DNA of 64,000 nt. Source: Pseudonocardiales bacterium (GTDB lineage: Bacteria; Actinomycetota; Actinomycetes; Mycobacteriales; Pseudonocardiaceae). The position numbers were made by a program, and so were the translations under genes. How positions within the stretch are numbered: position 1 is the stretch's first letter; every line of letters starts with the position of its first letter. Positions 23,049 through 40,365 of this stretch are shown in pieces. The notes beneath the pieces were generated by a model. That model worked only from the letters and a program-made list of their open reading frames with translations, ran no database searches and had not been told where the DNA came from. The stretch covers positions 1 through 64,000 of the forward strand of contig JAFAWY010000034.1 in the NCBI GenBank assembly GCA_019241525.1, given 5' to 3'.

Positions 23049-26000
23049 GTGAGGTTCATGGCGTACCGCGGTGCGATCTTCGACGTGGACGGGGTGCTGG
23101 TGGACTCGCCGCACGAGCTCGCTTGGCGCGAGGCCTTCAAGGAGCTGATGGAGGGTGACTGGTGCGCCATCCGCGATCAGACCAGCTGGACCGCCGAACG
23201 CTTCACCCCAGCGGTGTACCAGCAGGTGATGGCCGGAAAGCCGCGTATGGCCGGGGCCCGGGCCGCGCTGGAGTATTTCGGGGTACCCGACGTGGATCAC
23301 CGGGCTGAGCAGTACGCAGCGGCCAAGCAGCAGCACATCGTCGCGCTCATCGAGCAGGGCCGGTTCATGGCTTTCCCCGACGCGCTGCGGTTCATCCTGG
23401 CAGTCAAGGACAGCGGCCTCCGGGTCGCGGCCGCGTCCTCGTCGAAGAACGCCAAGCTGTTTCTCGAACGGATCCGGCTTGACACCTTCGCCGCCGAACA
23501 GCGCCTCCGCTATGACTTCGTTCACGAGGGAATGACTCTGGAGGAGCTGTTTGACGCCGATATCTCTGGCCGGGACTTCCCGCGCGGCAAACCAGACCCG
23601 ATGATTTTCCTCACTGCCGCCGAGGAACTCGGTCTGCCACCCGGCGACTGCTTCGTGATCGAGGACGCCACGAGCGGAGTCCAGGCCGCCAAAGCGGGGG
23701 GCATGGCCGCAATCGGCGTGGCCCGCCTCGGCGACCAGGAGTTGCTCGCCCGAGCCGGCGCCGACCTGGTGGTGACCACCCTCGATGACGTCTCCCTGCG
23801 AGCGCTCGCCGAGGGCCGGTTGCAGGAGCGGCGGGCCGCCGGGGAGATCAGGCGTCGGCACGCGGAACGACCACCGAGCGTCTGGACGCTGGTCTACGAC
23901 AGTTTCGACCCCGCGCGCCAGGGACTGCGCGAGGCGCTGTGCGCGCTGGGCAACGGGTATTTCGTCACTCGTGGCGCCCTGCCCGAGGTCGACGCTGACC
24001 GGATCCACTACCCGGGGACCTACGTCGCCGGCCTCTACAACCGGCTGGTCAGCGACATCGCCGGGCGGCAGGTTGAAAACGAGGATCTGGTCAACGTGCC
24101 CAACTGGCTCCCGCTGCGGTTCCGCATCACCGGCGGGCCCTGGTTCGACGTCGGGCAGGCCGACGTTGAGGAGCACCGCTTCGAGCTGGACATGCGGCAC
24201 GGAACGCTCACCCGCCAGTTGACCTGGACAGACGCCGACGGCCGGCGAACCAGCGTGGTCCAGCGCCGGTTCGTCAGCCGTAAGGATGAGCACCTTGCCG
24301 GCCTGACCACGGAGTTCACCGCCGAAAACTGGTCGGGCACCTTCGAGGTCCGCTCGGGCCTCGACGGCAGGATCGTCAACGCGGGCGTCAAGCGTTACCG
24401 CGACCTCAACGGTCACCACCTGACGACGTTGGGCCAAGCCGAGGTCGATAACGAAACGGTCGACCTCTACGTCGAGACAACCCAGTCACGTGTGCGTATC
24501 GCCCTTGCGGCCCGTACCAGGCTGCTGCGTGACGGCGAGGTCACCGAGGTCGATCGCAGCCTGCTTGAGGAGCCTGGCTTCGTGGCTCACCAGCTCACCA
24601 TCCCGCTGGAGCAGGGACACCCGGCGACCGTGGAGAAAATCGTCGCCCTGTACACCTCCCGGGACTGCGCGATCGCTGAAAGCCGGCACGACGCACGCCT
24701 GGCGGTTGCGCGTGCCGACGACTTCGCCGGGTTACTCGCCCGCCATGAGGGCGCGTGGCGCACCGCCTGGAACCGGTTCGACATCGAGATGGACAGCGCC
24801 AACGAGTGGACCGAGACGGTCCTGCACCTGCACATCTTTCACCTGCTGCAGACCGTCTCGCCGCACACGGCTCACTTGGATGTCGGGGTGCCGGCTCGGG
24901 GCTGGCACGGAGAGGCCTATCGGGGTCATATCTTCTGGGATGAGTTGTTCATCTTCCCGTTCTTCAACTTCCAGCGGCCGTCGCTGGCCGGCACGTTGCT
25001 CGAGTACCGGCACGCTCGCATCGCCGCGGCGCGGGCGGCGGCTCGGGAGGCGGGTTTCGCTGGTGCGATGTTCCCGTGGCAAAGCGGCTCCAACGGGCGC
25101 GAGGAGACCCAGCAGCTGCACCTCAACCCGAAGTCCGGGCGCTGGCTGCCCGACCGCACGCATCTGCAACGTCACGTCAACATCGCGATCGCGTACAACG
25201 TCTGGCAGCACTACATGGTCACCGGCAGTATCGGCTTCCTGCGCTTCTCCGGCGCCGAGCTGCTGATCGAGATCGCCCGGTTCTGGTCCAGCATCACCAC
25301 ATACCGCCCCGAGCCTGACCGCTACGAGATCCACGGTGTGATGGGCCCGGACGAGTATCACGAGGGCTACCCGGGCTCCGACGAGCAGGGTCTGCGCAAC
25401 AACACCTACACGAACGTGATGGTGGTCTGGGTGCTACTGCGGGCGTTGCAGGCGCTGGAGGAGCTGCCGCCGCACTACTGCCAAGAGCTGATCGAGGAGC
25501 TGACGATCCGCGATGAGGAGCTGGCCCGGTGGCGCGACATCACCCGCAAGATGAAAGTCGTCTTCCACGCCGACGGTGTGCTGACCCAGTTCGAGGGCTA
25601 CGAGCAGCTGCCCGAGTTCGACTGGGAGGGCTACCGGGCGAAGTACGGCAACATCCAGCGGCTGGATCGCGTGCTCGAGGCCGAAGGCGACAGTACCGAC
25701 CGCTACAAGGTGTCCAAGCAGGCCGACGTGCTGATGTTGCTGTTCCTGCTGTCGCGGCACGAACTACGCCAGTTGCTGGCCGACCTCGGCTACGAGGTCA
25801 GTGACGAGCAGCTGGCCCGCACCGTTGGCTACTACTTGGAGCGAACCTCGCACGGCTCGACCCTCAGCGCGGTGGTCAGCGCCTGGGTCCTGGCGCGGTA
25901 CCACCCGAACGAGGCGTGGCGATTCCTGCTGCAGGCATTGGACAGCGACGTCGCCGACGTTCAGGGCGGAACCACCGCCGAGGGCATTCACCTGGGGGCG

Positions 26001-26291
26001 ATGGCCGGCACGGTCGATCTCGTGCTGCGGTGCCTGACCGGGCTGCGGGCCCGCGGGCAGGTGCTGCGGTTCGAGCCGGCGCTGCCGCCTCAGGTCAAAC
26101 GGTTGCGGTTCAGCGTCCATTACCGGGGCCACCGCGTGGAGGCCGCGTTCACCGAGGACCGCCTGGAGGTCAGCTCCCGCTCCGGCCCGGCGGCGCCCAT
26201 CACCATCCTGGTCCGCAACCAGACCGTCGAGCTTCACCCTGGCACCCGGCACACGTTCTCGCTGGACCACGGCGGTAACCGACGCGGGTGA
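23049..26291 (+). CDS. Fused beta-phosphoglucomutase / GH65 glycoside phosphorylase
   Basis: 1080 residues, two enzymes in one chain. Residues about 5-245 are a HAD-family beta-phosphoglucomutase: FDVDGVLVDSPHELAWREAF with Asp12 and Asp14, AAASSSKNAKLFLERI and DCFVIEDATSGVQAAKAGGM. Residues about 275-1070 are a family 65 disaccharide phosphorylase: SFDPARQGLREALCALGNGY, then GVMGPDEYHEGYPG with the general acid Glu near 769, then SKQADVLMLLFLL and GGTTAEGIHLGAMAGT. Such phosphorylases split trehalose or kojibiose-type sugars to beta-glucose 1-phosphate, which the mutase turns into glucose 6-phosphate. In Mycobacterium tuberculosis the homologues Rv3400 and Rv3401 are separate adjacent genes; here they are joined. 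GTG 23049 or ATG 23058. Confidence 0.92.
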   Translation: MRFMAYRGAIFDVDGVLVDSPHELAWREAFKELMEGDWCAIRDQTSWTAERFTPAVYQQVMAGKPRMAGARAALEYFGVPDVDHRAEQYAAAKQQHIVALIEQGRFMAFPDALRFILAVKDSGLRVAAASSSKNAKLFLERIRLDTFAAEQRLRYDFVHEGMTLEELFDADISGRDFPRGKPDPMIFLTAAEELGLPPGDCFVIEDATSGVQAAKAGGMAAIGVARLGDQELLARAGADLVVTTLDDVSLRALAEGRLQERRAAGEIRRRHAERPPSVWTLVYDSFDPARQGLREALCALGNGYFVTRGALPEVDADRIHYPGTYVAGLYNRLVSDIAGRQVENEDLVNVPNWLPLRFRITGGPWFDVGQADVEEHRFELDMRHGTLTRQLTWTDADGRRTSVVQRRFVSRKDEHLAGLTTEFTAENWSGTFEVRSGLDGRIVNAGVKRYRDLNGHHLTTLGQAEVDNETVDLYVETTQSRVRIALAARTRLLRDGEVTEVDRSLLEEPGFVAHQLTIPLEQGHPATVEKIVALYTSRDCAIAESRHDARLAVARADDFAGLLARHEGAWRTAWNRFDIEMDSANEWTETVLHLHIFHLLQTVSPHTAHLDVGVPARGWHGEAYRGHIFWDELFIFPFFNFQRPSLAGTLLEYRHARIAAARAAAREAGFAGAMFPWQSGSNGREETQQLHLNPKSGRWLPDRTHLQRHVNIAIAYNVWQHYMVTGSIGFLRFSGAELLIEIARFWSSITTYRPEPDRYEIHGVMGPDEYHEGYPGSDEQGLRNNTYTNVMVVWVLLRALQALEELPPHYCQELIEELTIRDEELARWRDITRKMKVVFHADGVLTQFEGYEQLPEFDWEGYRAKYGNIQRLDRVLEAEGDSTDRYKVSKQADVLMLLFLLSRHELRQLLADLGYEVSDEQLARTVGYYLERTSHGSTLSAVVSAWVLARYHPNEAWRFLLQALDSDVADVQGGTTAEGIHLGAMAGTVDLVLRCLTGLRARGQVLRFEPALPPQVKRLRFSVHYRGHRVEAAFTEDRLEVSSRSGPAAPITILVRNQTVELHPGTRHTFSLDHGGNRRG

Positions 26292-28326: not shown

Positions 28327-28485
28327 AGGCGCGACTGAGCGGAGCGGCTGTACCGGGGCCATCGTTGACCATGACGAAGCCACGGTCTGTAGCGAAGAGC
28401 AGTTTCGTTTCGTGGTGGTGCAGGCCATCACCTTCGGCTTTCCTTCGTCCGAGCCGGGTACGTGCCGACGCGTCAAGGAGCTGTT

Positions 28486-28995
28486 GTGACGGTCCCGACC
28501 GCCGGCCACCCCGCGCCGGTCACGCCGGGTGGACGACCGTTTCGGCTGCTGTGGTTGTCGATCGCCGCGGCGCTGGTCACCATCAGTCTCAAAACTGCGG
28601 CCTGGCTGCTGACCGGCTCGGTCGGGCTGCTGTCCGACGCTGCCGAGTCACTGGTGAACCTGGTGGCAGCTGTCATTGCCTTGGCCGCGCTGACCTGGGC
28701 GAGCAAACCAGCCGACGAAGAACACGCCTTCGGCCATACCAAGGCCGAGTACCTGTCGGCCGGCGCCGAAGGCATGATGATCTTCGTGGCTGCGGTCGGC
28801 ATCGCGGGAACCGCAGTCGACCGGCTCCGTCACCCGCAACCCGTTGACGCCATTGGTATCGGGCTGGTCGTCTCTACGGCCGCATCACTGGTCAACCTGT
28901 CGGTGGGCGTGTTGCTGGTGCGCGCGGGTCGCCGGTACTTCCGGCATCGGTTGCGTGCACTGCTGCGGGGATCAGGCCATCGCCGGGCCGTCTAG
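28486..28995 (+). pseudogene. Truncated cation diffusion facilitator (CDF) gene
   Basis: From GTG 28486 (AAGGAG 5 bases upstream) the frame encodes four transmembrane helices of a CDF metal exporter: TGSVGLLSDAAESLVNLVAA, then ADEEHAFGHTKAEYLSAGAE, and helices near residues 97-112 and 124-147. The gene then stops after 169 residues in RRYFRHRLRALLRGSGHRRA, replacing the expected arginine-rich loop. CDF proteins are about 300 residues; helices 5-6 and the cytoplasmic metal-binding domain are absent, and I find no continuation in other frames downstream. Function is probably lost. The zinc-site Asp of helix 2 is still present. Confidence 0.75.
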
Positions 28996-29342: not shown

Positions 29343-29666
29343 TTACGGCTCCAGAGTGCCTTTGTAGAGCGTGACATCCCGGCGATCGAGCAGTGGACGG
29401 ATGCGGTCTCGTGCGATCGACAAGTAATGCGGCGACGTGCAGTGCTGATCGAACGCAGTCCGGTCGCGGTACCGCTCGCACAAGACGAACTCGCGCGGGT
29501 CCTCGTAGGCTTGGTGCGCGGAGAAGGCCGCACAGCCCGGTTCCGCCCGGACCAACCCGCTGTACTCGGCGAGAAGCGCAGCGACGGTGTCTTCGGCGCC
29601 TTCCTGCGCGCGGTAGTGGGCTATCACAACAACGGCCTGATCGACAACTTCATGGTCATTTGTCAC
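29343..29666 (-). CDS. Antibiotic biosynthesis monooxygenase (ABM) domain protein
   Basis: 107 residues, one ABM ferredoxin-like domain: AVVVIAHYRAQEGAEDTVAA, then YSGLVRAEPGCAAFSAHQAY, then EFVLCERYRDRTAFDQHCTS followed by HYLSIARDRIRPLLD. Proteins of this size act as cofactor-free quinone-forming monooxygenases, heme-degrading enzymes or simple ligand binders; the heme-type Asn/Trp residues are not evident. GGAGG lies 11 bases before the ATG. It sits 112 bases after the monooxygenase operon and might be read from it. Confidence 0.82.
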   Translation of the reverse strand: MTNDHEVVDQAVVVIAHYRAQEGAEDTVAALLAEYSGLVRAEPGCAAFSAHQAYEDPREFVLCERYRDRTAFDQHCTSPHYLSIARDRIRPLLDRRDVTLYKGTLEP

Positions 29667-29778: not shown

Positions 29779-30192
29779 TCATCGCGCGTGCGCCTGGCGG
29801 CCCCGCACCACGCGCAGCTTGACCCTGATGTCGGTGGTCTCGGTCGTGATCCAGCCAGCTGTTCCGTGCGCCTGGCGGCGTACCCGGACGATGGTCTCGC
29901 CGTCGCCGACTTCGCTGGCGGTGATCACCAGCGAGTCTGGGCCGACGCCGAAAGTGCGCTCAGCCTGCACGACGGCCTGCGCGACGATTCGGGCCACCGG
30001 CGCGCAGACCGTCCCGGCGGCGAACCGCAATGCCCACAGCGCCTCGGTTGCGGTCATACCCTGCACGCGGGCGAGGACGTGGCGGGCCTCGGCCTTGCTC
30101 AACCGGGCTTGGCTGTTATGCCCGATCACCGTCGTCTCGGGCAACCTGCTGGCCTCGATGGGCACATCACCGCCGGTGCGCAGTGTCCTCAC
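29779..30192 (-). CDS. Divergent paralogue of ribosomal protein uL22 at the end of the monooxygenase operon
   Basis: 137 residues from GTG 30192, which overlaps the TGA of the reductase gene (GTGA). Residues about 25-125 line up without gaps to bacterial L22: ARLSKAEARHVLARVQGM, EALWALRFAAGTVCAPVARI, VAQAVVQAERTFGVGPDSLV, then GETIVRVRRQAHGTAGWI and TTETTDIRVKL. True L22 has at these places a basic beta-hairpin and RIRRRTSHI-type rRNA-contacting residues; here they are largely neutral or acidic. The C-terminal Lys/Ala tail of mycobacterial L22 is missing. It is therefore unlikely to be the ribosomal copy, which belongs in the S10 operon. Tight coupling to the monooxygenase genes suggests a role with that enzyme, perhaps assembly or RNA-level control. 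Function unknown. Confidence 0.8.
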   Translation of the reverse strand: MRTLRTGGDVPIEASRLPETTVIGHNSQARLSKAEARHVLARVQGMTATEALWALRFAAGTVCAPVARIVAQAVVQAERTFGVGPDSLVITASEVGDGETIVRVRRQAHGTAGWITTETTDIRVKLRVVRGRQAHAR

Positions 30193-31424
30193 CTCACGAC
30201 AGCTCGGGCCAGGCGCCGCAGGTCGACGGACTCGTCGCGCAGGGCCGCGGCGCTGACCCGCAGCCCGGACGCGATCAGCTTGCGAGCCGCGATGACGTCG
30301 CGACCGCGGTTGAGCGCGACCACGGCACGGACTTGGCCATCCGCAAGGCAGAACCGGGCGAACGATCGCTCGGCGATCGATCCGCGCACCACCACCTCGT
30401 CGCACCCCTCGTTGAACCCCACCGACTGCAGGTTGTGTTCGTACTGGTCAGACCAGAACCAGTGCGGATCGTCATGGGCGATGTCCTCGCCGAGCATGTT
30501 CCGGGCCGCCACCGCGCCATGCTTGATCGCGTTGTCATGGTGCTCGACGCGCAGGTGACGCCCGTACAGCGGGTGGTAGTGCGCCGCGACATCGCCCGCG
30601 GCGTAGATGCCGGGAACGGCTGTGCGGCAATGCTCGTCGACGACGATGCCGTTGTGGCACTTCACCGAGGTACCGGTGACGATCTCGGTATTCGGGAGCA
30701 TCCCGACCGCGGCGAGGAGCAACCCGCACTCCAGCCGGCTGCGATCGGTGGTCACCACCAGGCCGTCCGCCGTCTCGGACACCGACTGCACCTGCTCTCC
30801 GGTGCGGAAGTCGACGCCGGCATCCCGGTGGATCTCGGCCAGCTGGCTGCCGACCTGCGCACCGAGTGCCCGCTCGAGCGGAACCTGTGCCATCTCCAGC
30901 ACGGTCACCACAACACCGAGCCGGCGGGCCGAGGCAGCGACCTCACACCCGATGAACCCGCCGCCGAGCACCACCAGCGGCTCGCCCTGCCGCAAGCGTT
31001 CGGCCAGCCGATCGGCGTCACCGCGGGTGCGCAGGTAGGCCACCCGCTCGCCACCCACCGATCCCTGGAGGCCCTCGAACGGCCGCGGCCGTCCCCCGGT
31101 GGCCAGCAGCAGCGCGTCGTAACCCAGCCGCTCGCCTCCCGCCAGCTGGACCACCCGCTCGCGATCGTCGATCCCCTCAGCGCGCTCACCGAGTCGCAGC
31201 TCGACCCCCTGCTCGGCATACCAGCTCGCGGGCCGCACCGGTAGCTCAGCGCCGTCGAGGTGGCCGGTCAGGTAATCCTTGGACAGTGGTGGCCGCTCAT
31301 ACGGCACCACAGGCTCGCCCGCGACGACGACCAGCCGGCCGTCGAAGCCGGCTGAGCGCAGGGTCGCCGCCGCGGAGGCGGCGCACGGGCCTCCACCGAC
31401 GATGACGAACACCGGTGTGGTCAC
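30189..31424 (-). CDS. FAD-dependent ferredoxin reductase of the diiron monooxygenase
   Basis: 411 residues from GTG 31424, overlapping the Rieske stop codon as GTGA. N-terminal FAD-binding motif VFVIVGGGPCAASAAATL, then VPYERPPLSKDYLTG typical of rhodocoxin/putidaredoxin-reductase-like enzymes. NAD-binding motif PLVVLGGGFIGCEVAASARR near the middle, then IYAAGDVAAHYHPLYG (second FAD motif) and a C-terminal dimer domain. It passes electrons from NAD(P)H to the Rieske protein. Classical T4MO-type systems use a flavin/[2Fe-2S] reductase of another fold (TmoF), so this glutathione-reductase-like type is a swapped module. Confidence 0.9.
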   Translation of the reverse strand: MTTPVFVIVGGGPCAASAAATLRSAGFDGRLVVVAGEPVVPYERPPLSKDYLTGHLDGAELPVRPASWYAEQGVELRLGERAEGIDDRERVVQLAGGERLGYDALLLATGGRPRPFEGLQGSVGGERVAYLRTRGDADRLAERLRQGEPLVVLGGGFIGCEVAASARRLGVVVTVLEMAQVPLERALGAQVGSQLAEIHRDAGVDFRTGEQVQSVSETADGLVVTTDRSRLECGLLLAAVGMLPNTEIVTGTSVKCHNGIVVDEHCRTAVPGIYAAGDVAAHYHPLYGRHLRVEHHDNAIKHGAVAARNMLGEDIAHDDPHWFWSDQYEHNLQSVGFNEGCDEVVVRGSIAERSFARFCLADGQVRAVVALNRGRDVIAARKLIASGLRVSAAALRDESVDLRRLARAVVR

Positions 31425-31747
31425 GGCACCGCCACACAGATCATCCCGTCGTCGTCCACCTTCACGGGGAAGGAACGCAGCGCGCAATCGTCCGGGTTGA
31501 CGCCCTTGCCCGTGAGGGCATCGAACACCCAGTGATGGTTCGCGCAGGTCAGTTCCCGGCCGTCGAGATCACCTTGGTCGAGCGGCCATGCCTGGTGCGG
31601 GCAACGATTCTCGTAGGCGCGGATCTGGCCGTCGACGTTGACCAGCAAGATCTTCGCCGTACCGACCTGGACCCCGGTCAGGTCGCCCTCCCACAGCTCG
31701 TCGAGCTCCATGACCGGGGTCCACACCCATTGCTGGGCTTCGGTCAT
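31421..31747 (-). CDS. Rieske ferredoxin of the diiron monooxygenase (TmoC-like)
   Basis: 108 residues from ATG 31747, 2 bases after the beta-subunit stop. The Rieske [2Fe-2S] ligands are clear: Cys49-Pro-His51 and Cys68-Ala-Asn-His71 (ENRCPHQAWPLDQG and LTCANHHWVFD). Length and WVWTPVMELDELWEGDLTGV at the N-terminus match the T4moC/TmoC family, soluble electron carriers between reductase and hydroxylase. Its presence shows that the system is of the four-component toluene/alkene monooxygenase type, not the three-component propane or methane type. Confidence 0.93.
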   Translation of the reverse strand: MTEAQQWVWTPVMELDELWEGDLTGVQVGTAKILLVNVDGQIRAYENRCPHQAWPLDQGDLDGRELTCANHHWVFDALTGKGVNPDDCALRSFPVKVDDDGMICVAVP

Positions 31748-31749
31748 GA

Positions 31750-32805
31750 TCAGCTCGCTGCGGCGGGATCGGCCGATGCGAGGCCGGGGCTGGCTCCGGC
31801 GAGCAACCGTTCGCGGGCAGCAGCGGCCGCTGCGGCTACCTCCGAGGCTGCCCGGCCCCGCAGGGAATAGTTCTCGAGCACCGAGCCCAGCCCCGCTGCC
31901 GACTCGTCTGCCAGCGGCGACCACTTGTCGATCCACTTCCGCAGCACGCCGGCGTTTCCAGGTCGTTGCGCGACCACGAAGCGGGCGAGTTCCCCGCTCC
32001 ACCTTTCCCGCCGTTGCGCGTCGCGCTGCAGGAACGAGGTCAGCAGCCAGGTGAGGTCATCGCCACTGTCCCTGGCGACCTCCCCGAGCTGGCGGAGCAG
32101 CACGTCGTCCAGCGACGGCAGCAGCACGAGGTTCATCGCGGTGAACGCTTCGCCCCAGTCGTAAGCGGTCAGTGCCAGCTCGATGGCACGCCTGGTCGGT
32201 TGCCAGGCCTCGTCCAACTCCCAGATGGCTCGCTCGCCGGTGGCGAAGCCGTCGTCCGGCCAGGCCAGCTGCAGTTCCCGGGTGCGGTAGGACACCAGCG
32301 TCACCCGGCGCAGCATGTCGGCGGCGGACAACGCTGCGGGGTTGGTGATGTAGGGCGACGGTGCCATCAAGCCGATGTAGGCCTGCACCTGCTGGGCACC
32401 GTGCAGCGGGTACCGCGTCGTGGTGAACAGCCGGGCCAACGTTGCCCGCCACTCGGGCGGGAGCTGGGCGTCGGCGTTCGCCGCGGCGTACTGCTCGAGT
32501 ACCCCGCCGACCTTTGTCTCCTGCTCGTGCTGCTGGGTCACGTAGGCCCGGTAGCTGAGCATGTCCGGGTCACGGAAGCTTTCCCAGTCGTCGACCTGCA
32601 GCGGGGAGTCATCCCGGTAAGTCTGCATCCACAGGTTGGCCGGCGACGACGGGTTCTGCTCGAACGGGGCTTTCCGGCCCTCGCGCAGGGTGTAGTTCAT
32701 GCCCTGCGTGCCGATCTCGTAATCGGACGGGCGGCGCTTGATGTCGCCGAAGGCACTCCACGTGCGCAAGCGGCGCTTGGCTGGCTGATCGGTTGTCGCT
32801 GACAT
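31750..32805 (-). CDS. Diiron monooxygenase beta subunit (TmoE-like)
   Basis: 351 residues from ATG 32805, with GGGAGA upstream. The family pattern is RRLRTWSAFGDIKRRPSDYE, then NYTLREGRKAPFEQNPSSPA, NLWMQTYRDDSPLQVDDWES, FRDPDMLSYRAYVTQQHEQE and RYPLHGAQQVQAYIGLMAPS. The subunit is a ferritin-like helical bundle without an iron site and pairs with the alpha subunit in the (alpha-beta-gamma)2 hydroxylase. The long Ala-rich C-terminus is usual. The gene follows the effector gene by 11 bases. Confidence 0.92.
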   Translation of the reverse strand: MSATTDQPAKRRLRTWSAFGDIKRRPSDYEIGTQGMNYTLREGRKAPFEQNPSSPANLWMQTYRDDSPLQVDDWESFRDPDMLSYRAYVTQQHEQETKVGGVLEQYAAANADAQLPPEWRATLARLFTTTRYPLHGAQQVQAYIGLMAPSPYITNPAALSAADMLRRVTLVSYRTRELQLAWPDDGFATGERAIWELDEAWQPTRRAIELALTAYDWGEAFTAMNLVLLPSLDDVLLRQLGEVARDSGDDLTWLLTSFLQRDAQRRERWSGELARFVVAQRPGNAGVLRKWIDKWSPLADESAAGLGSVLENYSLRGRAASEVAAAAAAARERLLAGASPGLASADPAAAS

Positions 32806-32816
32806 GTCGTTCTCCC

Positions 32817-33113
32817 TCAACCAACTGGTGCCTTGGCCGGGCCGAGCGACCACTCGACGGCGTCCGATGTCGTGTTGATCCGCCCCGCAAAGGCGGACAT
32901 CATCGCCTCCAACGAGCGGATCTCGAAGTCCGGTCCCAGGTGGCGTTTGAGCGATTCCGCGGTCACCCGCAGGTGGTCGGACGCGTGGATCCGCACGTAA
33001 GCTCCACGGTCCGTTACTTCAATCTCGGTGCCTGGGTTGTCGTCGTAGATGGCGGCGACGACCTGATCGACCTCATCGCTTGACCGCAGGATGGGTCCCA
33101 CCGCGTTGTCCAT
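32817..33113 (-). CDS. Diiron monooxygenase effector/coupling protein (TmoD/MmoB family)
   Basis: 98 residues. The start NAVGPILRSSDEVDQVVAAI and the core IEVTDRGAYVRIHASDHLRV are typical of TmoD/DmpM/MmoB regulatory proteins, as is the late MMSAFAGRINTTSDAVEW. These cofactor-free proteins dock on the hydroxylase over the diiron site and raise coupling of NADH use to oxygenation. It lies between the gamma and beta genes, unlike the tmoABCDEF order, where the Rieske gene comes before the effector. Confidence 0.92.
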   Translation of the reverse strand: MDNAVGPILRSSDEVDQVVAAIYDDNPGTEIEVTDRGAYVRIHASDHLRVTAESLKRHLGPDFEIRSLEAMMSAFAGRINTTSDAVEWSLGPAKAPVG

Positions 33114-33124
33114 CGCGCTCCCTC

Positions 33125-33415
33125 CTAGGCGTCGGCGTAATCGACTCGGATGTGATCGAACGGTGCAATGCCGGCCTCGGCCACGGTCAGGTCGGGCGTC
33201 AGCGCCCGGTCGTTGTGGTAGACGACCTTCTCGGCGTCGCGGGCGCGGACCCGCTTGCCCTCGACGTGATAGGCGACCTTGCCGGCCACTTCTGCGATGG
33301 TGTCCGCGGTGGTGATCGCCACCAGGATCTCGACGAAGTCATCGGCGAAGATGGCGTTGACCGGCACGAGCTGCGGCTCGGCAGCTGTCTCGGTCGCTTC
33401 AGCCGTCTCGGTCAT
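33125..33415 (-). CDS. Diiron monooxygenase gamma subunit (TmoB-like)
   Basis: 96 residues from ATG 33415, which starts 1 base after the alpha-subunit stop (TGA-C-ATG). After a 15-residue Ala/Glu-rich leader the sequence has the ubiquitin-like fold pattern of TmoB/IsoB: LVPVNAIFADDFVEILVAIT, VAGKVAYHVEGKRVRARDAE and PDLTVAEAGIAPFDHIRVDY. It completes the hydroxylase with alpha and beta. No metal ligands are expected. Confidence 0.9.
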   Translation of the reverse strand: MTETAEATETAAEPQLVPVNAIFADDFVEILVAITTADTIAEVAGKVAYHVEGKRVRARDAEKVVYHNDRALTPDLTVAEAGIAPFDHIRVDYADA

Positions 33416-33416
33416 G

Positions 33417-34931
33417 TCAGCGCCCTCCCGCCGTACCGGCCGGCTCGGATTGGCTGAACGAGCTGGCCCAGTGGTAGTTGTGCGCGTCGTCACCCATCAC
33501 ATCCGGGGTGAGGCCCATGTAACCCAGAACCCCCGGGACGTCCATCGGCTGGATCTCGCCGAGCAGGAACCGTTCGACCACCGTCGTGTGGTTGAGGTTG
33601 TCGCGGTCCTCCCACCAGATCTGCCGGCAACCCTTGGTGCAGAAGTGGTAGGTCATCCCGTTGTGCTTGAGCGAGTAGTTGCGTACCCGCCACTTGCCGT
33701 CCCGGCCGTAGTTGGCGTTGCAGGTCGGCAGGTGACACATGCTGCACAGCCACGGCAGCGTTTCCGGGAGCGTCGCTTCCATATTGCCGGAGTTGATGTT
33801 CTCGGCGATCACCCGCCACTTGTCGCCGTAGACGGTCTCCCAGTTCGGGTATTTCTCGTTGAGCCATTGCCGGGAGGCCTCGTCCACCCCTGCCACCGGT
33901 TTCCACCACAGGGTCGGCCGCCAGAACCACAGGCCCATGTTCAGCGAGTGGTGCCAGATGTCGAGGCCTTCCATGAACTCGTCCCAGTACCAGGGTTTCT
34001 TCAGGCCGTAATCGGAGAGCGTCCGCATGAACTGGTCGATGATCCACTCTTCCATGAACTCGCGGTAGGACTGCTTGCGGTGCTCGACCGGCGTGTAGTA
34101 GTCCATCGACGGCCCGGTCAGCGCCGCGAAGGCGCGTGCGGAGAGCCAGAAGAATTTGTCGACCGTCCACTGTGCCCGGACTGGGTCGTGCTCGACCAGG
34201 ATCTCGAGGGTTGGACCGCCCTGCTGGGAGTGCCTCGCCTCGTCGGTCTGGATCGACGAGATCATGTTGGCGAAGTTGATGTCACCCGCCTCGAGGGCGT
34301 CCGCGGACAGCGCGACGAACTGCAGGTTGGTGAAGCCAGTTTCGAAGGTCAGCGGCAGCTGGATGGCCATGTCGACCGCGTTCGCCCCGGTCATCATCGC
34401 GTCGAACAAGCTGCGCAGGGAAACGGTCACCCAGTCGTTGGTGTGGAACGCCTTGTGCGACCAGTCGTACTGGGGGTCCTTGCTGACGAATTCGTGGCCG
34501 AACAGCAGCGTGATCTGGGTGTGCCGCATCTCGTCCAGCGCGCCGAAGATGGACATGTTGCGCCAGGCGGGGCTCAGCCCGAACCGGGCCATCTTCAGCT
34601 CGGCAAGGGTCGCCATTCCCTCCACCAGGGCGACGCCGCCGAAGTGCATCTTCGTCGCGGACTTCCAGCCCTCGTCGAGCGTCTCGAACGCCTTCGATCG
34701 CTTCAGCGCGGACTGCACCGCGTAAGCCGAATTCTCCTTCTCTCGCTGGGTGGCGACGTAGTCGGGGTAGCTGACCTTGTAGCTTTCCTCCCATTTCTGC
34801 CAGGCGTCGCGGGGCACCTTTCCGGTGCCGCTATGCCACTCGGGGTACACCGCCTCGTCATCGACGTACTTCAAGGTCCAGTCGACGTCCCGGACGATGC
34901 CCTGCCACTCCTCCCGCTTCAATAGCGCCAT
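33417..34931 (-). CDS. Soluble diiron monooxygenase hydroxylase alpha subunit (TmoA-like)
   Basis: 504 residues, close in sequence and numbering to toluene 4-monooxygenase TmoA. The six diiron ligands fall at Glu104, Glu134, His137 (ALDEMRHTQ), Glu197 (FETGFTN), Glu231 and His234 (QTDEARHSQQGG), and the gating Thr is Thr201. The C-terminal third contains a YHS-type segment with Cys396, Cys399, Cys404, Cys431 and Cys435 (CSMCHLPTC and YHFCTKGC) that could bind a metal; TmoA itself has lost these cysteines. Role: O2 activation and hydroxylation or epoxidation of an alkene or aromatic. The sequence places it in the four-component (group 2) class; the exact substrate cannot be read from it. Confidence 0.95.
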   Translation of the reverse strand: MALLKREEWQGIVRDVDWTLKYVDDEAVYPEWHSGTGKVPRDAWQKWEESYKVSYPDYVATQREKENSAYAVQSALKRSKAFETLDEGWKSATKMHFGGVALVEGMATLAELKMARFGLSPAWRNMSIFGALDEMRHTQITLLFGHEFVSKDPQYDWSHKAFHTNDWVTVSLRSLFDAMMTGANAVDMAIQLPLTFETGFTNLQFVALSADALEAGDINFANMISSIQTDEARHSQQGGPTLEILVEHDPVRAQWTVDKFFWLSARAFAALTGPSMDYYTPVEHRKQSYREFMEEWIIDQFMRTLSDYGLKKPWYWDEFMEGLDIWHHSLNMGLWFWRPTLWWKPVAGVDEASRQWLNEKYPNWETVYGDKWRVIAENINSGNMEATLPETLPWLCSMCHLPTCNANYGRDGKWRVRNYSLKHNGMTYHFCTKGCRQIWWEDRDNLNHTTVVERFLLGEIQPMDVPGVLGYMGLTPDVMGDDAHNYHWASSFSQSEPAGTAGGR

Positions 34932-34945
34932 CAGACCCGCTCCTC

Positions 34946-35425
34946 TTAGTCGACTTCGAGGTGGCCGAGTTGCCGGCAGATACTGGCGTTGTCCCAGTAG
35001 CCGGTTATGCTGTCGATCTTGTTTTCTTCGTTGACGTGGAATACGAACAGATGGGGCTCGGAGAAGGCCTGTCCGCGCGGGGCGATCGGTCCCCAGGGCC
35101 CTGCCTGGGTGCCGCCGATCACGACCTCAGCCGCGACGTTGCCATTGTCGTCCGCGGTGATCGAGCGAACCTCGTTGGTGAGATCCGGGAACGCGTGGAT
35201 CAGTCCGGCCCAGATCGGTTTCCCCACCGTGCTCACCTTGCCGTCACCGCGCAGCACGATCTGCTTGCGCCACATCTCGAACGGCAGGTAGCTGAAGTCG
35301 GCGTTGGGGGCGCACAGATCCACCATCGTGTGAACGTCCTGGCGCCGGTAGGTGTCGAAGAACTCCTGCACGACCCCTGCTGCACTGGCGGCAGAGCGGG
35401 CGCGCCTTTCACCGGCGAGCGTCAT
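34946..35425 (-). CDS. NTF2/SnoaL-like protein of the monooxygenase operon (copy 2)
   Basis: 159 residues from ATG 35425, with GGAG and GAGG upstream. The fold pattern is VQEFFDTYRRQDVHTMVDLC, ADFSYLPFEMWRKQIVLRGD, GLIHAFPDLTNEVRSITADD and the end KIDSITGYWDNASICRQLGH. It resembles the neighbouring copy, mainly in the FPDL and ITGYWD segments, so the two probably arose by duplication. NTF2-fold proteins include limonene-epoxide hydrolase and ketosteroid isomerase, so a role in handling the epoxide product is possible but not shown. It lies 14 bases before the alpha-subunit gene. Confidence 0.8.
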   Translation of the reverse strand: MTLAGERRARSAASAAGVVQEFFDTYRRQDVHTMVDLCAPNADFSYLPFEMWRKQIVLRGDGKVSTVGKPIWAGLIHAFPDLTNEVRSITADDNGNVAAEVVIGGTQAGPWGPIAPRGQAFSEPHLFVFHVNEENKIDSITGYWDNASICRQLGHLEVD

Positions 35426-35451
35426 GTCCTCATCTCCCTTCGGCGCCGGTG

Positions 35452-35913
35452 TCAGACGAGCGCGACCTGATCGAGCCGCTTGACGGCCAACCGGCGGTAG
35501 AGCATGTTCTGGTCCCAGTAGCCGGTGATCGAGCGAATTGCGCCGTTGTCGGTGCGCAGCATCCACACCTGGTCGATGTCCAGATGCTTTTCCTGGTTGA
35601 TCGCTCCGAGGTAGTCCGCGGCCTGGGTGCCCTCCAACTTCAGCTCCGTGATGGTCGCGCCATCGGAGCCGGTAAAGGATTTCTTGATGGTCAGCAGCAG
35701 GTCGGGAAACGCGGTCACGGTGGCCGCGAAGAATTCACGTCCCTCTTTCGCAGTACCGAGGATCCCCGCGGGCGGGATTTCTACCTTCGCATCGTCGGCT
35801 ACCCGGGCGAATGCCGTGTCGACGTCGCCGTCCGCGATGGCTCGCCAGAACTGCGCTACCGGGTCGACTTGCTGTGATCCAGTCTGTGATCCAGTCATTG
35901 GTGACGCTGTCAT
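35452..35913 (-). CDS. NTF2/SnoaL-like protein of the monooxygenase operon (copy 1)
   Basis: 153 residues from ATG 35913, preceded by AGGAGG 11 bases away; GTG 35925 directly abuts that site and is less likely. Pattern: QFWRAIADGDVDTAFARVAD, VEIPPAGILGTAKEGREFFA, AFPDLLLTIKKSFTGSDGAT and AIRSITGYWDQNMLYRRLAV. This is a SnoaL-like polyketide-cyclase/isomerase fold. It shares the FPDL and ITGYWD segments with the next gene, 26 bases away. Reaction unknown. Confidence 0.8.
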   Translation of the reverse strand: MTASPMTGSQTGSQQVDPVAQFWRAIADGDVDTAFARVADDAKVEIPPAGILGTAKEGREFFAATVTAFPDLLLTIKKSFTGSDGATITELKLEGTQAADYLGAINQEKHLDIDQVWMLRTDNGAIRSITGYWDQNMLYRRLAVKRLDQVALV

Positions 35914-35928
35914 GGACCTCGACACCTC

Positions 35929-36948
35929 CTAGAGCCGGTCGAGTGACTTGAGGACTGCGTCGGCGACCGCGTCAGCCGAGTTGGGGTTCTGCGCGGTGAT
36001 CAGGTTGCGGTCGACTACCACGTGCGAGGTCCACGCGGCGCGGGCGTCATCAAAGACAGCGCCGGCGTTGCGCAGCTCGGTCTCCAGGTACCACTGCATT
36101 CCGTGCTTGCCGCTTGGTGTCTGGCTTTCCTCCTCGTCGGTGAACGAGGTCATCCGGTACCCGTCGAACAGCCACTGGCCATCGGTGTTTGCCGGGGCGG
36201 CGAGCAGGAACGCAGGACCATGGCACAGTGAGGCGATCGGCGCCCGCTTGGCGTGCAACAGGCCGAGCAGCCGGGTGATCTGCGGGTTGTTCGCCATGTC
36301 GACCATCGGGCCGTGCCCGCCCGGCGCGAAGACGGCGTCGAACTCGCTCATCTCTGCGTCGGTCATCGTGGAAAGGTTCGCCGGCCGCTGGAAGCCGGGA
36401 ATTTCCGCGAGCTTGCGGGCCACCTCGTCGGACTCTTTCTTGCTGTCGGCGATCACCTCCGCGATGGCAGCCTCGACCTCGGCGCGGCTCAGCGGACCGG
36501 ACAGGTTCTCTTCCACCAGCACGTCGGCGAACGGCCGGTCCTGCTGCCAGGTGATCTTCGCAGCCTGGTTGACCAGCCTGCGCGCTTCTTTGGCCGGGAC
36601 ACCGTGTTCCTGCATCGCGAGGAAGACCCGGCGGGCGCCGACCATGCCCAGTTCGGTCAGGTGGCGCAGGGTCAGTCTGATGTCGTCCACGTCGTGGGCG
36701 AAGGACCGGACCACGGAACCGAGGAAATCCTTGTCGTCGTCCGGGTAGTGGAAGATCTCTTCGAGTCCGTAAGGGTCGGCGAAGGGCGGCTGGCCGTCTG
36801 GGGTTGCCACGACGACATCGACGCCGGCTTCGACAAACCGTTCATAGGGCGTCAACGCCTCATCGGCGAAGAAACCGGTGACATGGGGTGAGCCGTCAGC
36901 GAGAGGCATTTCCCTGGCGCTCGACACGAGGAACAGCAAGCGAGGCAT
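35929..36948 (-). CDS. DJ-1/PfpI-family protein with inserted helical domain
   Basis: 339 residues from ATG 36948 (GGAGC 7 bases upstream). Residues 1-70 and 170-339 form a DJ-1/Hsp31-like class I amidotransferase fold: PRLLFLVSSAREMPLADGS, then FDAVFAPGGHGPMVDM, then IASLCHGPAFLLA with Cys242 as the nucleophile. Between them, about residues 90-165 read GARRVFLAMQEHGVPAKEA, RRLVNQAAKITWQQDRPF and SGPLSRAEVEAAI, which resembles the helical C-terminal domain of adenylosuccinate lyase. Hsp31-like enzymes are glyoxalase III, chaperones or deglycase-like; ordinary members have about 230 residues. As first gene of the monooxygenase operon it might protect against reactive aldehydes or epoxides. That role is inferred. 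Confidence 0.82.
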   Translation of the reverse strand: MPRLLFLVSSAREMPLADGSPHVTGFFADEALTPYERFVEAGVDVVVATPDGQPPFADPYGLEEIFHYPDDDKDFLGSVVRSFAHDVDDIRLTLRHLTELGMVGARRVFLAMQEHGVPAKEARRLVNQAAKITWQQDRPFADVLVEENLSGPLSRAEVEAAIAEVIADSKKESDEVARKLAEIPGFQRPANLSTMTDAEMSEFDAVFAPGGHGPMVDMANNPQITRLLGLLHAKRAPIASLCHGPAFLLAAPANTDGQWLFDGYRMTSFTDEEESQTPSGKHGMQWYLETELRNAGAVFDDARAAWTSHVVVDRNLITAQNPNSADAVADAVLKSLDRL

Positions 36949-37072
36949 GGGCAGCTCCAACCAGATGCTTGTGCAAACTCCAGCGGGCACCGACGGTAGG
37001 GAATCGAGTGGAGATCGACTAGGTGAGATCCTGCTGAACACTTGCGCATTCCGCTGGTAATGGCTGTGCCGA
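36949..37072. promoter_or_regulatory. Promoter region of the monooxygenase operon
   Basis: 124 bases between the AraC-type gene and the first gene of the diiron monooxygenase operon, all on the minus strand. No clear palindrome or textbook promoter hexamers stand out. AraC-type activators bind direct repeats, which I could not define here. Confidence 0.35.
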
Positions 37073-38062
37073 TTACCGGGATCCCCGCACGGCCGATCCC
37101 TCCGCTGCAGAGGTCGCGCGCTCTATCCGGAACCGCACTCCATTGCGTTGTAAGGCCAGAGTCCCGGGTGTCACCCCGAAGTAGCGTTTGAACTCGTTGA
37201 TGAAGTGCGACAGGCTCGGGTACCCCACGGCCCGGGCAGCCTCCCCCACGGCGAGTCCTTCCTCGAGGATCAGCACCCGGGCACGGTCAAGCCGCATCGT
37301 CTTGACGAATTGGTACGGCGCCATCCCGGTCACCTCGCGGAACAGGTGCGCGAACGCCGACGGGCTCATGAACACGTGCTCGGCCAGCTCGGCGACCGTG
37401 ACCGGCTCGGCCATCCGGTCTCGCACGTACCGGATCACTGCGGTGACGGGATTGTTCTCGTGCTCGGTCATCGCCGCTGCGAGCAACCGGGAGCGCTGCT
37501 CAGCCTGCATCAGGCGGTAAGAGATCTCGCGCAGGTATCCGGGTGCGAGCACCCTGCGATCGGCGCCGGCGCTGATTGACCGAAGAAAGCGCAGGACCGC
37601 GCCCATGAGATTCTGCTCGACCGCCGAGACATAGGCCTGCGCCGTGCTGTGCCCAGGAGGTCGGTGGAAAGTAGTTGTCGTCCGGTCTGCCATATCGGCG
37701 CAGACCTGCCTGACCACGGCAGGGTCGATCTGCAGCACGAGCGACAGGAAAGGCAACTGGGGGCTGGCTTCCAGAACCTCTACCTGGAAGCGCATGCCGC
37801 GGGTGAGCACGAGGTAGCGGAACGGGTCGTAGAAGTAGTCAACCCCGTCGACCACGACACGCTTACGGCCCTGCACCACACAGCACAGTGCCAGCGACTG
37901 CACCTCTTCCCACTGCAGGGGCTGCGGGCTGGTGAACCGGTAGGTGGTCAATCCGGGCCAGGCGCACTCGTTGGGTCCGACCCTGGCTGCCATCCGAGAG
38001 AGCTCGGCGATGAGGTCGCCGGCGGTGAGACGTTCTTCCATGGACAGTTCCAGAGCGGACAT
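37073..38062 (-). CDS. AraC-family transcriptional regulator
   Basis: 329 residues from ATG 38062 (GGAGG 8 bases upstream; the open frame extends further but without such a site). The N-terminal AraC_N-type sensor (about 25-185) includes LCCVVQGRKRVVVDGVDYFY and PFLSLVLQIDPAVVRQVCAD. The C-terminal double helix-turn-helix (about 220-315) has VTVAELAEHVFMSPSAFAHL, FREVTGMAPYQFVKTMRLDR and YPSLSHFINEFKRYFGVTPG. It is placed to activate the monooxygenase operon downstream and perhaps the divergent acyl-CoA operon. AraC-type activators of actinobacterial alkane/alkene monooxygenases are known (MimR group). Confidence 0.88.
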   Translation of the reverse strand: MSALELSMEERLTAGDLIAELSRMAARVGPNECAWPGLTTYRFTSPQPLQWEEVQSLALCCVVQGRKRVVVDGVDYFYDPFRYLVLTRGMRFQVEVLEASPQLPFLSLVLQIDPAVVRQVCADMADRTTTTFHRPPGHSTAQAYVSAVEQNLMGAVLRFLRSISAGADRRVLAPGYLREISYRLMQAEQRSRLLAAAMTEHENNPVTAVIRYVRDRMAEPVTVAELAEHVFMSPSAFAHLFREVTGMAPYQFVKTMRLDRARVLILEEGLAVGEAARAVGYPSLSHFINEFKRYFGVTPGTLALQRNGVRFRIERATSAAEGSAVRGSR

Positions 38063-38447
38063 CGCCCATACCTCCACGCGCCGCATCCCGAGCGCGCCAT
38101 TGCGCACGGGTGAGCGGTCTTCGGAGTGTCGCACCAAGAGGTAACAGCCAGCTACGCCCTTTCAGGTCGAGTGGCTGCCTGCGGAAAGACCGCCACCCGG
38201 ATGGATGGTCGGGTCAGCATACTGATCACAGAGTGGAGATGTGACGGCCCGACCACTGGCCGCAGCGAGCGGGCACCGGCGCTGGGCTCCCGGCGGCCAG
38301 CCGGCTCACTGGGTTGTCTGCGCTATCTGGTTCCTGCTGCGATTCGCTTCGTTCCTGTGCACCCGGCCACCGACGGCGGCGGAATGCCCATTGCCCCCGA
38401 CATACTGCCAGCGTCGTGGTGTCACTAAGCGAGCAAGCCTCGGAGCG
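38063..38447. promoter_or_regulatory. 385-base divergent region, AraC gene / acyl-CoA operon
   Basis: No gene is supported, although the ligase frame stays open to 38241. The promoters of the AraC gene (leftward) and of the seven-gene plus-strand operon must lie here. I see no strong palindrome; AraC half-sites would need alignment with related clusters. Confidence 0.4.
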
Positions 38448-40013
38448 ATGGTGGGAGAGCTGTCGTACCAACCGTTGAGCCCGCTCAGTTTCCTGGACCG
38501 AGCGGCCCACTCGCATGGCGACCGGTTGGCGGTCATCGACGGCGATCTACGGTTGACCTACGCGCAGTTGCAGGATCGGTGTCAACGGCTGGCTGGTGCG
38601 CTCGCCTCGCTAGGGCAGCAGCCGGTGGCGGTCCTCGCCCCGAATAGCCATGTGCTGCTGGAGGCGCATTTCGGGGTGCCGTGGGCCGGTGTGCCGCTGG
38701 TGACGATCAATACCCGGTTGTCTGCCGATGAGGTGGCCTACATCGTCGCCCACTGCGAAGCCGGGGTGCTGATCTATGACGCTGAGCTCGAGCCGACGGC
38801 GCGGTCTGTGGCCCGCCGGCTGTCCGGCGTGCTCATGGTGCGCAGCGGCGGAGCGCGCGACGAATACGAGGCTGCGCTCACCACGGCGCAACGGCTCGCT
38901 CGCCACCCTGCAGACGAACGGTCCCTGTTGTCGATCAACTACACCAGCGGCACGACGGGCCGCCCCAAAGGCGTGATGTATCACCACCGTGGCGCCTACC
39001 TGCAGGCCCTGGCGATGGTCGTGCACGCTGGGCTCACCTTGTCATCGGTACACCTGTGGACCTTGCCGATGTTCCACTGCAACGGGTGGTGCTTCCCCTG
39101 GGCGGTCACCGCGGCCTCTGCCCGGCATGTCTGTTTGCGGAAGTTCGAGCCTGATCGTGTCTGGCGGCTCATCGAGCAGGAAGGGGTCACGCATCTCGAA
39201 GCGGCACCCACCGTGCTGACCATGCTGGCCGCGGCACCCAAGGCACCTCGCCGCCGAACCGGGCCTCCGGTGCGGGTCTGCACCGGAGGCGCACCGCCGT
39301 CGCCGACTCTCCTGGAACGGATGTCCGCGCTCGGGGCGAACGTCACTCACCTGTACGGGCTGACCGAAACCTTCGGTCCCGTGGTGGTCTGCGAGTGGCG
39401 ACCGGAATGGGACGAGCTTCCGGTCAGTGAGCAGGCCAGGCTGAAGGCTCGCCAGGGCATTGGCAACATCGTGTCCCAGCAGGTGCGGGTGGTCGATCCG
39501 GACGGTGCGGATGTCCCGGCCGATGGGCAGTCGGTCGGTGAGATCGCGTTGCGCGGCAACAACGTCATGCTCGGCTACTTCAAGGACCCCGAGGCGACGG
39601 CGGCAGCTGCGCCGGACGGATGGTTTCGCACCGGAGATCAGGGCGTGGTGCACCCGGACGGCTATGTCGAACTGCGCGATCGGATCAAGGACGTCATCAT
39701 CTCCGGCGGCGAGAACATCGCATCCGTGGAAGTCGAGCAAGCAATTGCGGCACACGCAGCGGTGCTGGAGGCTGCGGTTGTGGCTGCGCCGGACGACAAA
39801 TGGGGAGAGGTTCCGGTTGCCTACGTCACTCTGCAGGACGGCAAGACCGCCACCGAACGAGACATCATCGATCACGTACGGACTCGCCTGGCACGTTTCA
39901 AAGCACCGCGACGTGTCGTGTTCAGCGAACTGCCCAGGACATCCACCGGAAAGATCCAGAAATTCGTCCTCCGTGAACGATCACGCCGAGACCACAATGG
40001 CACGGATGCCTGA
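38448..40013 (+). CDS. Acyl-CoA synthetase / AMP-dependent ligase
   Basis: 521 residues from ATG 38448 (GTG 38451 fits the GGAG spacing slightly better). Adenylation-enzyme motifs in order: INYTSGTTGRPKGVMYHHRG (P-loop), LYGLTETFGPVVVCEW, GEIALRGNNVMLGYFKDPEA, GWFRTGDQGVVHPDGYVEL, RIKDVIISGGENIASVEVEQ and the C-terminal Lys motif ELPRTSTGKIQKFVLR. It belongs to the medium-chain or aromatic-acid CoA ligase group. As first gene of the divergent operon it probably activates the carboxylic acid produced from the monooxygenase substrate. Confidence 0.92.
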   Translation: MVGELSYQPLSPLSFLDRAAHSHGDRLAVIDGDLRLTYAQLQDRCQRLAGALASLGQQPVAVLAPNSHVLLEAHFGVPWAGVPLVTINTRLSADEVAYIVAHCEAGVLIYDAELEPTARSVARRLSGVLMVRSGGARDEYEAALTTAQRLARHPADERSLLSINYTSGTTGRPKGVMYHHRGAYLQALAMVVHAGLTLSSVHLWTLPMFHCNGWCFPWAVTAASARHVCLRKFEPDRVWRLIEQEGVTHLEAAPTVLTMLAAAPKAPRRRTGPPVRVCTGGAPPSPTLLERMSALGANVTHLYGLTETFGPVVVCEWRPEWDELPVSEQARLKARQGIGNIVSQQVRVVDPDGADVPADGQSVGEIALRGNNVMLGYFKDPEATAAAAPDGWFRTGDQGVVHPDGYVELRDRIKDVIISGGENIASVEVEQAIAAHAAVLEAAVVAAPDDKWGEVPVAYVTLQDGKTATERDIIDHVRTRLARFKAPRRVVFSELPRTSTGKIQKFVLRERSRRDHNGTDA

Positions 40014-40026
40014 GGAGGGACCTGCC

Positions 40027-40365
40027 GTGAGCCAACCCACCACGAGCGCGAGCACGACCACCGACGACGTGCTGGCGGCCCTCGGCGAGGTCATCGATCC
40101 CGACCTCGGTATCAACGTCGTCGACCTTGGTTTCGTTTACCACGTCGAACTGGATGACCAGCACATCGCCACCCTGACCATGACCCTCACCTCGCCGGCC
40201 TGCCCGTTGACCACGGTCATCGAGGATCAGATCCGCACCGCGCTGGTTACTGCCGGGCTGGTCCGCGATTACCGCGTGAACTGGGTATTCAGCCCTTCCT
40301 GGACCCCTGCCCGGATCACCGAGGACGGGCGAGAACAGCTGCGCGCCATCGGATTCTCCCTGTGA
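40027..40365 (+). CDS. MIP18/PaaD-type Fe-S cluster assembly factor (DUF59)
   Basis: 112 residues from GTG 40027, with GGAGGG 7 bases upstream. The DUF59 core is ALGEVIDPDLGINVVDLGFV, then TMTLTSPACPLTTVIEDQIR with the conserved Cys, and the PaaD-like end NWVFSPSWTPARITEDGREQ. Such proteins assist in loading Fe-S or diiron clusters (PaaD with the phenylacetyl-CoA epoxidase; SufT). Next to a diiron-Rieske monooxygenase it is a natural candidate for its maturation, though it is transcribed divergently from it. Its stop overlaps the next start (GTGA). Confidence 0.88.
   Translation: MSQPTTSASTTTDDVLAALGEVIDPDLGINVVDLGFVYHVELDDQHIATLTMTLTSPACPLTTVIEDQIRTALVTAGLVRDYRVNWVFSPSWTPARITEDGREQLRAIGFSL

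Follow-up and report, generated by a model that had tools for sequence, protein, structure and literature searches.

A uL22-like protein encoded in a diiron monooxygenase operon, with a probable role in metal-enzyme assembly

Analysis of a stretch of DNA of 64,000 nucleotides (hereafter, the window) revealed a gene whose product is a genuine homologue of ribosomal protein uL22, yet not the ribosomal protein. The gene lies in the operon of a soluble diiron monooxygenase, and fusion, adjacency and co-occurrence tie its domain to a DUF59 (FeS_assembly_P) protein and to one clade of oxygenases. Given an L22 relative in an oxygenase operon and the DUF59 fusion in related genomes, a ribosomal component has apparently been taken over for the assembly of a metal enzyme. 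On balance, we favour the view that the uL22-like protein is an accessory maturation factor of this monooxygenase with its Rieske ferredoxin, acting together with DUF59; if so, a universal ribosomal-protein fold would have been recruited from translation into metalloenzyme biogenesis.

The Monooxygenase Operon

The relevant features of the window are listed below.

29343-29666, minus strand: protein of the ABM (antibiotic biosynthesis monooxygenase) type; its gene follows the uL22-like gene
29779-30192, minus strand: uL22-like protein of 137 amino acids; GTG start, Ribosomal_L22 domain at residues 27-126
30189-31424, minus strand: reductase (Pyr_redox_2 and Reductase_C); GTG at 31424 is the chosen start, a longer frame extends to 31487
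31421-31747, minus strand: Rieske [2Fe-2S] ferredoxin; start set through alignment with relatives
31750-32805, minus strand: TmoE-like hydroxylase beta subunit (Phenol_Hydrox)
32817-33113, minus strand: TmoD-like effector (MmoB_DmpM)
33125-33415, minus strand: TmoB-like subunit (profile match and relatives)
33417-34931, minus strand: TmoA-like hydroxylase alpha subunit of 504 amino acids (Phenol_Hydrox)
34946-35566, minus strand: SnoaL-like protein; start uncertain
35452-35925, minus strand: second SnoaL-like protein
35929-37041, minus strand: DJ-1/PfpI family protein; start uncertain
37073-38137, minus strand: AraC-family regulator; start uncertain
39997-40365, plus strand: DUF59/FeS_assembly_P protein (PF01883, 62.7 bits), about 10 kb from the uL22-like gene

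Two Phenol_Hydrox matches, together with TmoB, MmoB_DmpM, Rieske and Pyr_redox_2/Reductase_C matches, identify the enzyme as a soluble diiron monooxygenase of the TmoA kind. The genes on the minus strand are read in the order AraC, PfpI, SnoaL, SnoaL, TmoA, TmoB, TmoD, TmoE, Rieske, reductase, uL22-like and ABM, and their spacing suggests that they form one transcript. The GTG start of the uL22-like gene shares GTGA with the stop of the reductase gene; this overlap within a TmoABDE-Rieske-reductase operon bears out the membership in the hydroxylase operon that a preliminary description of this DNA had proposed. A layout with a Pyr_redox/Reductase_C reductase, two SnoaL genes and a PfpI gene was seen in the window (30189-36900) and at L034, L046, L047 and L097-L103.

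A uL22 Homologue Distinct from the Ribosomal Protein

The proposal that the gene is a non-ribosomal uL22 paralogue would have fallen if no significant L22 match had been found; instead, the Pfam Ribosomal_L22 profile matched the protein with E=1e-16 and 61.4 bits (gathering score 28), and the uL22 fold was confirmed as well. A chance open reading frame or wrong frame is ruled out by the profile match, the fold, the dN/dS ratio and the position in the operon. The protein scored 56.1 bits against the NCBI equivalog rplV_bact, below its cut-off of 73.65. Nor does the gene have the setting of an rplV, being located in a monooxygenase operon rather than the S10 operon and accompanied by a second L22 gene in the genome, a better-scoring match on contig C106 which is the normal rplV that had been anticipated. 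The score below the cut-off and this separate rplV rule out that the window copy is the genome's own rplV.

Twelve uL22-like sequences, including that of the window, were compared with 38 rplV sequences, which are the best-matching loci, all passing a motif filter, and thus lean towards query-like uL22s. Twenty columns are invariant in all 12 paralogues. Among them, Cys63 stands where rplV has Ser/Ala, His109 where it mostly has Gln and Trp114 where it mostly has Arg, while Arg106 takes the place of Pro and Arg68 that of Lys. Most of the near-invariant basic residues of uL22 are absent, in agreement with the earlier remark that most rRNA-contacting basic residues are lost: among 13 columns with at least 90% K/R in rplV, only three hold K/R in every paralogue, seven do so in 1 to 9 of the 12 and three (columns 102, 114 and 117) in none. 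The net charge of the core is 0 to +8, compared with +6 to +11 in the 38 rplVs.

All 12 paralogues retain the hairpin arginines 103, 105 and 106, and the hairpin shows a conserved basic pattern, V-R-V-R-R-K/Q-A-H-G-x-A-x-W-I. Hairpin columns 102-115, a range picked after viewing the alignment and evaluated by a 100,000-draw test that ignores adjacency, form the most conserved stretch, with a mean major-residue frequency of 0.91 versus 0.59-0.60 elsewhere (calculated from 10 of the 12 paralogues, two near-identical ones being left out). Because rplV shows the same degree of conservation in the hairpin (0.92), fold or ancestry may account for part of it. Cys63 and His109 were considered as possible metal ligands; around the tip of the hairpin, the structure model is of too low quality to assess this.

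In a tree of the 12 paralogues and 26 of the 38 rplVs, the paralogues form one group (100/100) separated from rplV by 3.3 changes per site, a distance that carries a long-branch warning. Compared with the related locus L003, the uL22-like gene has a dN/dS of 0.33 (18 synonymous and 17 non-synonymous changes), the highest of the seven genes compared (0.04-0.33); the gene is under selection for its protein sequence. Compared with rplV, the uL22-like protein is thus distinguished by a score below the equivalog cut-off, a near-neutral core, a location outside the S10 operon and, in many relatives, fusion to DUF59.

Distribution of the uL22-Like Gene

A reductase of the same operon type lies directly upstream of all 12 uL22-like genes, six of which overlap it by 4 nt, and TmoA-like genes are linked to the uL22-like gene in other genomes too, so that the conserved linkage whose absence would have told against the proposal is present. 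A sample of the window's family contributed seven of 200 genomes with nine loci (window and G730 included, the G730 locus and the L003 record making a single count, as their contigs share a length of 126,053 bases), and a sample of one genus of the same order contributed two of 148 genomes (G279 and G248), the genus being probably Rhodococcus, although this is a guess. In the class sample (394 genomes) and the phylum sample (296 genomes), no further relative was detected but just an rplV. A scan of genome_contigs gave one relative, and the survey therefore rests on the genome samples, where its thresholds (1e-23 to 1e-24) may miss members as divergent as that of G248, which scores near rplV with query A1. 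A single-sequence query found no relative in viral_contigs, and phages gave no match.

In the plasmid collection, tblastn detected one record with a relative, Rhodococcus koreensis R85 NZ_CP070611.1, in the same operon. Its protein (WP_206017194.1), annotated as 'iron-sulfur cluster assembly protein', carries FeS_assembly_P after an L22 domain that is 53% identical over 101 residues. According to the genome paper on this strain, plasmid R85_p2 alone holds toluene degradation (PMC10986565). Genes for serine hydroxymethyltransferase and a (semi)aldehyde dehydrogenase come after the operon in R. koreensis and G279 (L034 13078-15961; L046 11064-13807) and may hint at the pathway.

Several candidates were rejected on inspection. 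The match in G423 (84.8 bits) is an rplV with S19 adjoining, both matches in G128 are rplVs adjoining S19 and S3, and the Tsukamurella match H17 is an rplV of the S10 operon. At the viral_contigs match L094, the opposite strand holds an overlapping long reading frame that is unrelated.

Fusion and Adjacency to DUF59

In eight of the 12 relatives, a single open frame spans both the L22 and the DUF59 part (R. koreensis, G279, G248, the first copy of G814, both copies of G791, G839 and G765), based on Pfam for seven of them and on tblastn alone for the second copy of G791. DUF59 is the next gene in two others (G769 and the second copy of G814) and is encoded elsewhere in the window and G730. In the uL22 tree, the eight fused paralogues group together (93/79) and the four others form no group.

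Profile search found no FeS_assembly_P domain in the uL22-like protein of the window, and three matches to this domain in the genome. One is the gene at 39997-40365, a nearby candidate partner of the PaaD/SufT kind of maturation factor, and the other two are read, from their sequences, as Mrp-like and SufT-like. The gene is flanked by acyl-CoA synthetase and CoA-transferase genes, and its G730 orthologue is 92% identical and has the same flanking genes. Its product is a homologue of what forms the C-terminal half in the fused relatives (54-56% identity to that of R. koreensis); by identity it is closest to the DUF59 protein of G769 (69%), compared with 54% to the SufT-like protein of G730.

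All 10 operon-linked DUF59 sequences compared have the motif DPDLG...GF, whereas three SufT-like proteins have DPELG...GL. Eight of 10 inner branches of the DUF59 tree are open, and the SufT-like proteins form one weak group with the DUF59s of the window, G814 and G769; with most branches open and SufT-like proteins mixed in, the tree lends no support to a single clade of operon-linked DUF59s.

G791 has a decayed copy of the operon (L096 7455-10548), with TmoE in pieces and no match to TmoA, TmoB or TmoD, alongside an intact second copy. In the first copy, the DUF59 part of the fusion runs out of frame and Pfam matches part of the domain only.

Co-occurrence with One Hydroxylase Clade

The uL22-like gene is present at 10/10 loci whose TmoA is at least 71% identical to that of the window (window, G769, both G814 copies, the second copy of G791, G839, G765, G279, G248 and R. 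koreensis), a count that leaves out two loci with no TmoA match, namely L003/G730, where the contig ends, and the decayed first copy of G791. The ABM gene is found at most, not all, loci of this clade. In contrast, none of 40 loci with a TmoA 44-59% identical has the uL22-like gene, suggesting that such enzymes in general do not need the L22/DUF59 pair. These 40 loci comprise 14 from the class sample (three on short stretches) and four from the family sample, which were searched locally; seven genomes of the genus sample with one L22 match each, taken as rplV (two were checked and are rplV); and 15 plasmid records, of which four were opened and the others judged from tblastn of the plasmid collection.

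The nearest outsider, G771 (TmoA 59%), has PfpI, two SnoaL, TmoABDE, Rieske and the same type of reductase in the same order, with no L22 or DUF59 match at the locus. An operon that had this arrangement beforehand thus either gained the pair or lost it. In G375, two TmoA-like genes (56%; L072 and L073) have no TmoD, TmoE or Rieske match nearby, one of them also lacking TmoB, and are apparently lone alpha subunits.

Relationship to Known Systems

The enzyme resembles toluene- and isoprene-type monooxygenases (TmoABCDEF, isoABCDEF) in its TmoA, B, D, E and Rieske homologues. Unlike the four annotated plasmid operons examined (A-B-Rieske-D-E with a 2Fe-2S-type reductase gene), the genes are arranged here as A-B-D-E-Rieske-reductase, with PfpI, two SnoaL, uL22-like, DUF59 and mostly ABM genes as extras over the toluene/isoprene type.

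DUF59 genes beside diiron oxygenases are already known. PaaD is reported to be required by the PaaABCE oxygenase in vivo though not in vitro, and a part in loading iron into PaaE or PaaA has been proposed for it (PMC4498308); an 'iron-sulfur cluster assembly protein' gene also appears in drawn SDIMO clusters (PMC9213486, figure legend). Like PaaD, the DUF59 protein of the present operons is encoded with a multicomponent diiron oxygenase, and the L22/DUF59 pair may work in PaaD's way; PaaD differs in serving another oxygenase, from the phenylacetyl-CoA epoxidase operon, and in that no L22 domain is mentioned for it in the passages concerned. SufT is needed for maturation of Fe-S proteins (PMC9045647; PMC4982691, section 6). 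It was found without bound iron in one study, where its cysteine was viewed as an interaction site (PMC9045647), and hence iron delivery by DUF59 is not claimed here. The operon-linked DUF59 has the CP motif of SufT, and the DUF59 part of the fusions is about 45-50% identical to suf-adjacent DUF59s of Tsukamurella and Microbacterium, but its gene lies outside the suf operon and its motif differs from that of SufT-like proteins as described above.

What is new is the uL22-like domain, which is unexpected in an oxygenase accessory factor. No description of a uL22-DUF59 architecture was found among the literature matches listed. Section 6 of PMC4982691 names no L22 domain among SufT/DUF59 arrangements, though it characterises the S2 N-terminal motif only as lacking known homology, and the portion consulted of a review on extraribosomal functions of bacterial ribosomal proteins (PMC10931766) does not mention a uL22 paralogue. 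The phrase 'ribosomal protein L22' in the part of PMC11985408 concerned refers only to overexpression and is not a related finding.

Possible Function of the uL22-Like Protein

Of the roles suggested in the preliminary description, assisting assembly is favoured, since a DUF59/FeS_assembly_P domain is fused to the uL22-like part or encoded next to it in relatives; RNA binding and sensing of the enzyme gain no positive support. A uL22-fold protein would have left the ribosome and would work with a DUF59/FeS_assembly_P protein on the oxygenase of its operon, the two forming one polypeptide in most relatives, being encoded by neighbouring genes in two and, in the window, probably cooperating as separate proteins whose genes are 10 kb apart. 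The DUF59 unit, like PaaD and SufT, would connect the iron-sulfur assembly machinery of the cell to a client, and the uL22-like domain may recognise this client (apo-hydroxylase or Rieske ferredoxin) through the basic hairpin and Cys63. The DUF59 gene of the window is in the same gene neighbourhood as the operon and its G730 orthologue keeps its flanks, which supports this role, whereas its location outside the operon counts against it, as do the 40 TmoA loci without the pair (G771 and 39 more distant) and the dN/dS of the uL22-like gene, the highest of the seven. In the ribosome, the uL22 hairpin lines the tunnel of the nascent chain. More tentatively, the hairpin of the uL22-like/DUF59 protein might recognise the oxygenase in its unfolded or apo state, perhaps during its emergence from the ribosome, with DUF59 then assisting insertion of the metal centres.

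A position in the same operon, directly after the electron-transfer genes in 12/12 cases and with the 4-nt reductase overlap in half of them, would also suit an accessory structural or regulatory subunit, which, with or without DUF59, would belong stably to the oxygenase complex or modulate electron transfer. This is unlikely, considering the fusion or adjacency to DUF59, a family tied to Fe-S maturation, and the TmoA-like operons at 44-59% that manage without the gene (0/40). Somewhat less probable again is a regulator that adjusts expression by binding RNA, either the operon mRNA or some other, with DUF59 reporting the Fe-S state. The uL22 fold is an RNA-binding one and the three hairpin arginines persist in every paralogue, but the reduced core charge and the retention of only three of 13 basic columns argue against such a role, as does the lack of any Rfam match in window positions 26000-47500.

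It is very improbable that the protein replaces uL22 in some ribosomes and brings DUF59 close to the exit tunnel, where metal would be loaded during translation. Conservation is highest in the tunnel-hairpin part and replacement by a paralogue is known for bL31 (PMC10931766), but most uL22 basic residues are lost (no K/R at columns 102, 114 and 117), and the paralogues are 3.3 changes per site from rplV and confined to one operon type. The idea of a functionless relic of an rplV duplication, already disfavoured, is hardly credible: the gene evolves fast relative to rplV, but its dN/dS of 0.33, the 20 columns invariant in 12/12 paralogues and the operon position in 12/12 speak for constraint, and only the first copy of G791 has decayed, along with its operon.

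Should the maturation role be correct, a universal ribosomal protein would have acquired new function through a dedicated paralogue outside the ribosome that carries a fused cofactor-assembly domain, in contrast with moonlighting of ribosomal copies. The loading of diiron and Rieske centres of multicomponent monooxygenases in vivo would become testable, as the client is encoded together with the factor, which occurs naturally in both fused and split form.

Other Genes in the Window

Two further genes, both on the plus strand, were observed. One (23049-26291) encodes a 1080-aa fusion of a HAD hydrolase domain and a family-65 glycosyl hydrolase/phosphorylase. The other (28462-28995) encodes a cation-efflux protein that matches only the first 131 of 198 profile positions and is apparently shortened.
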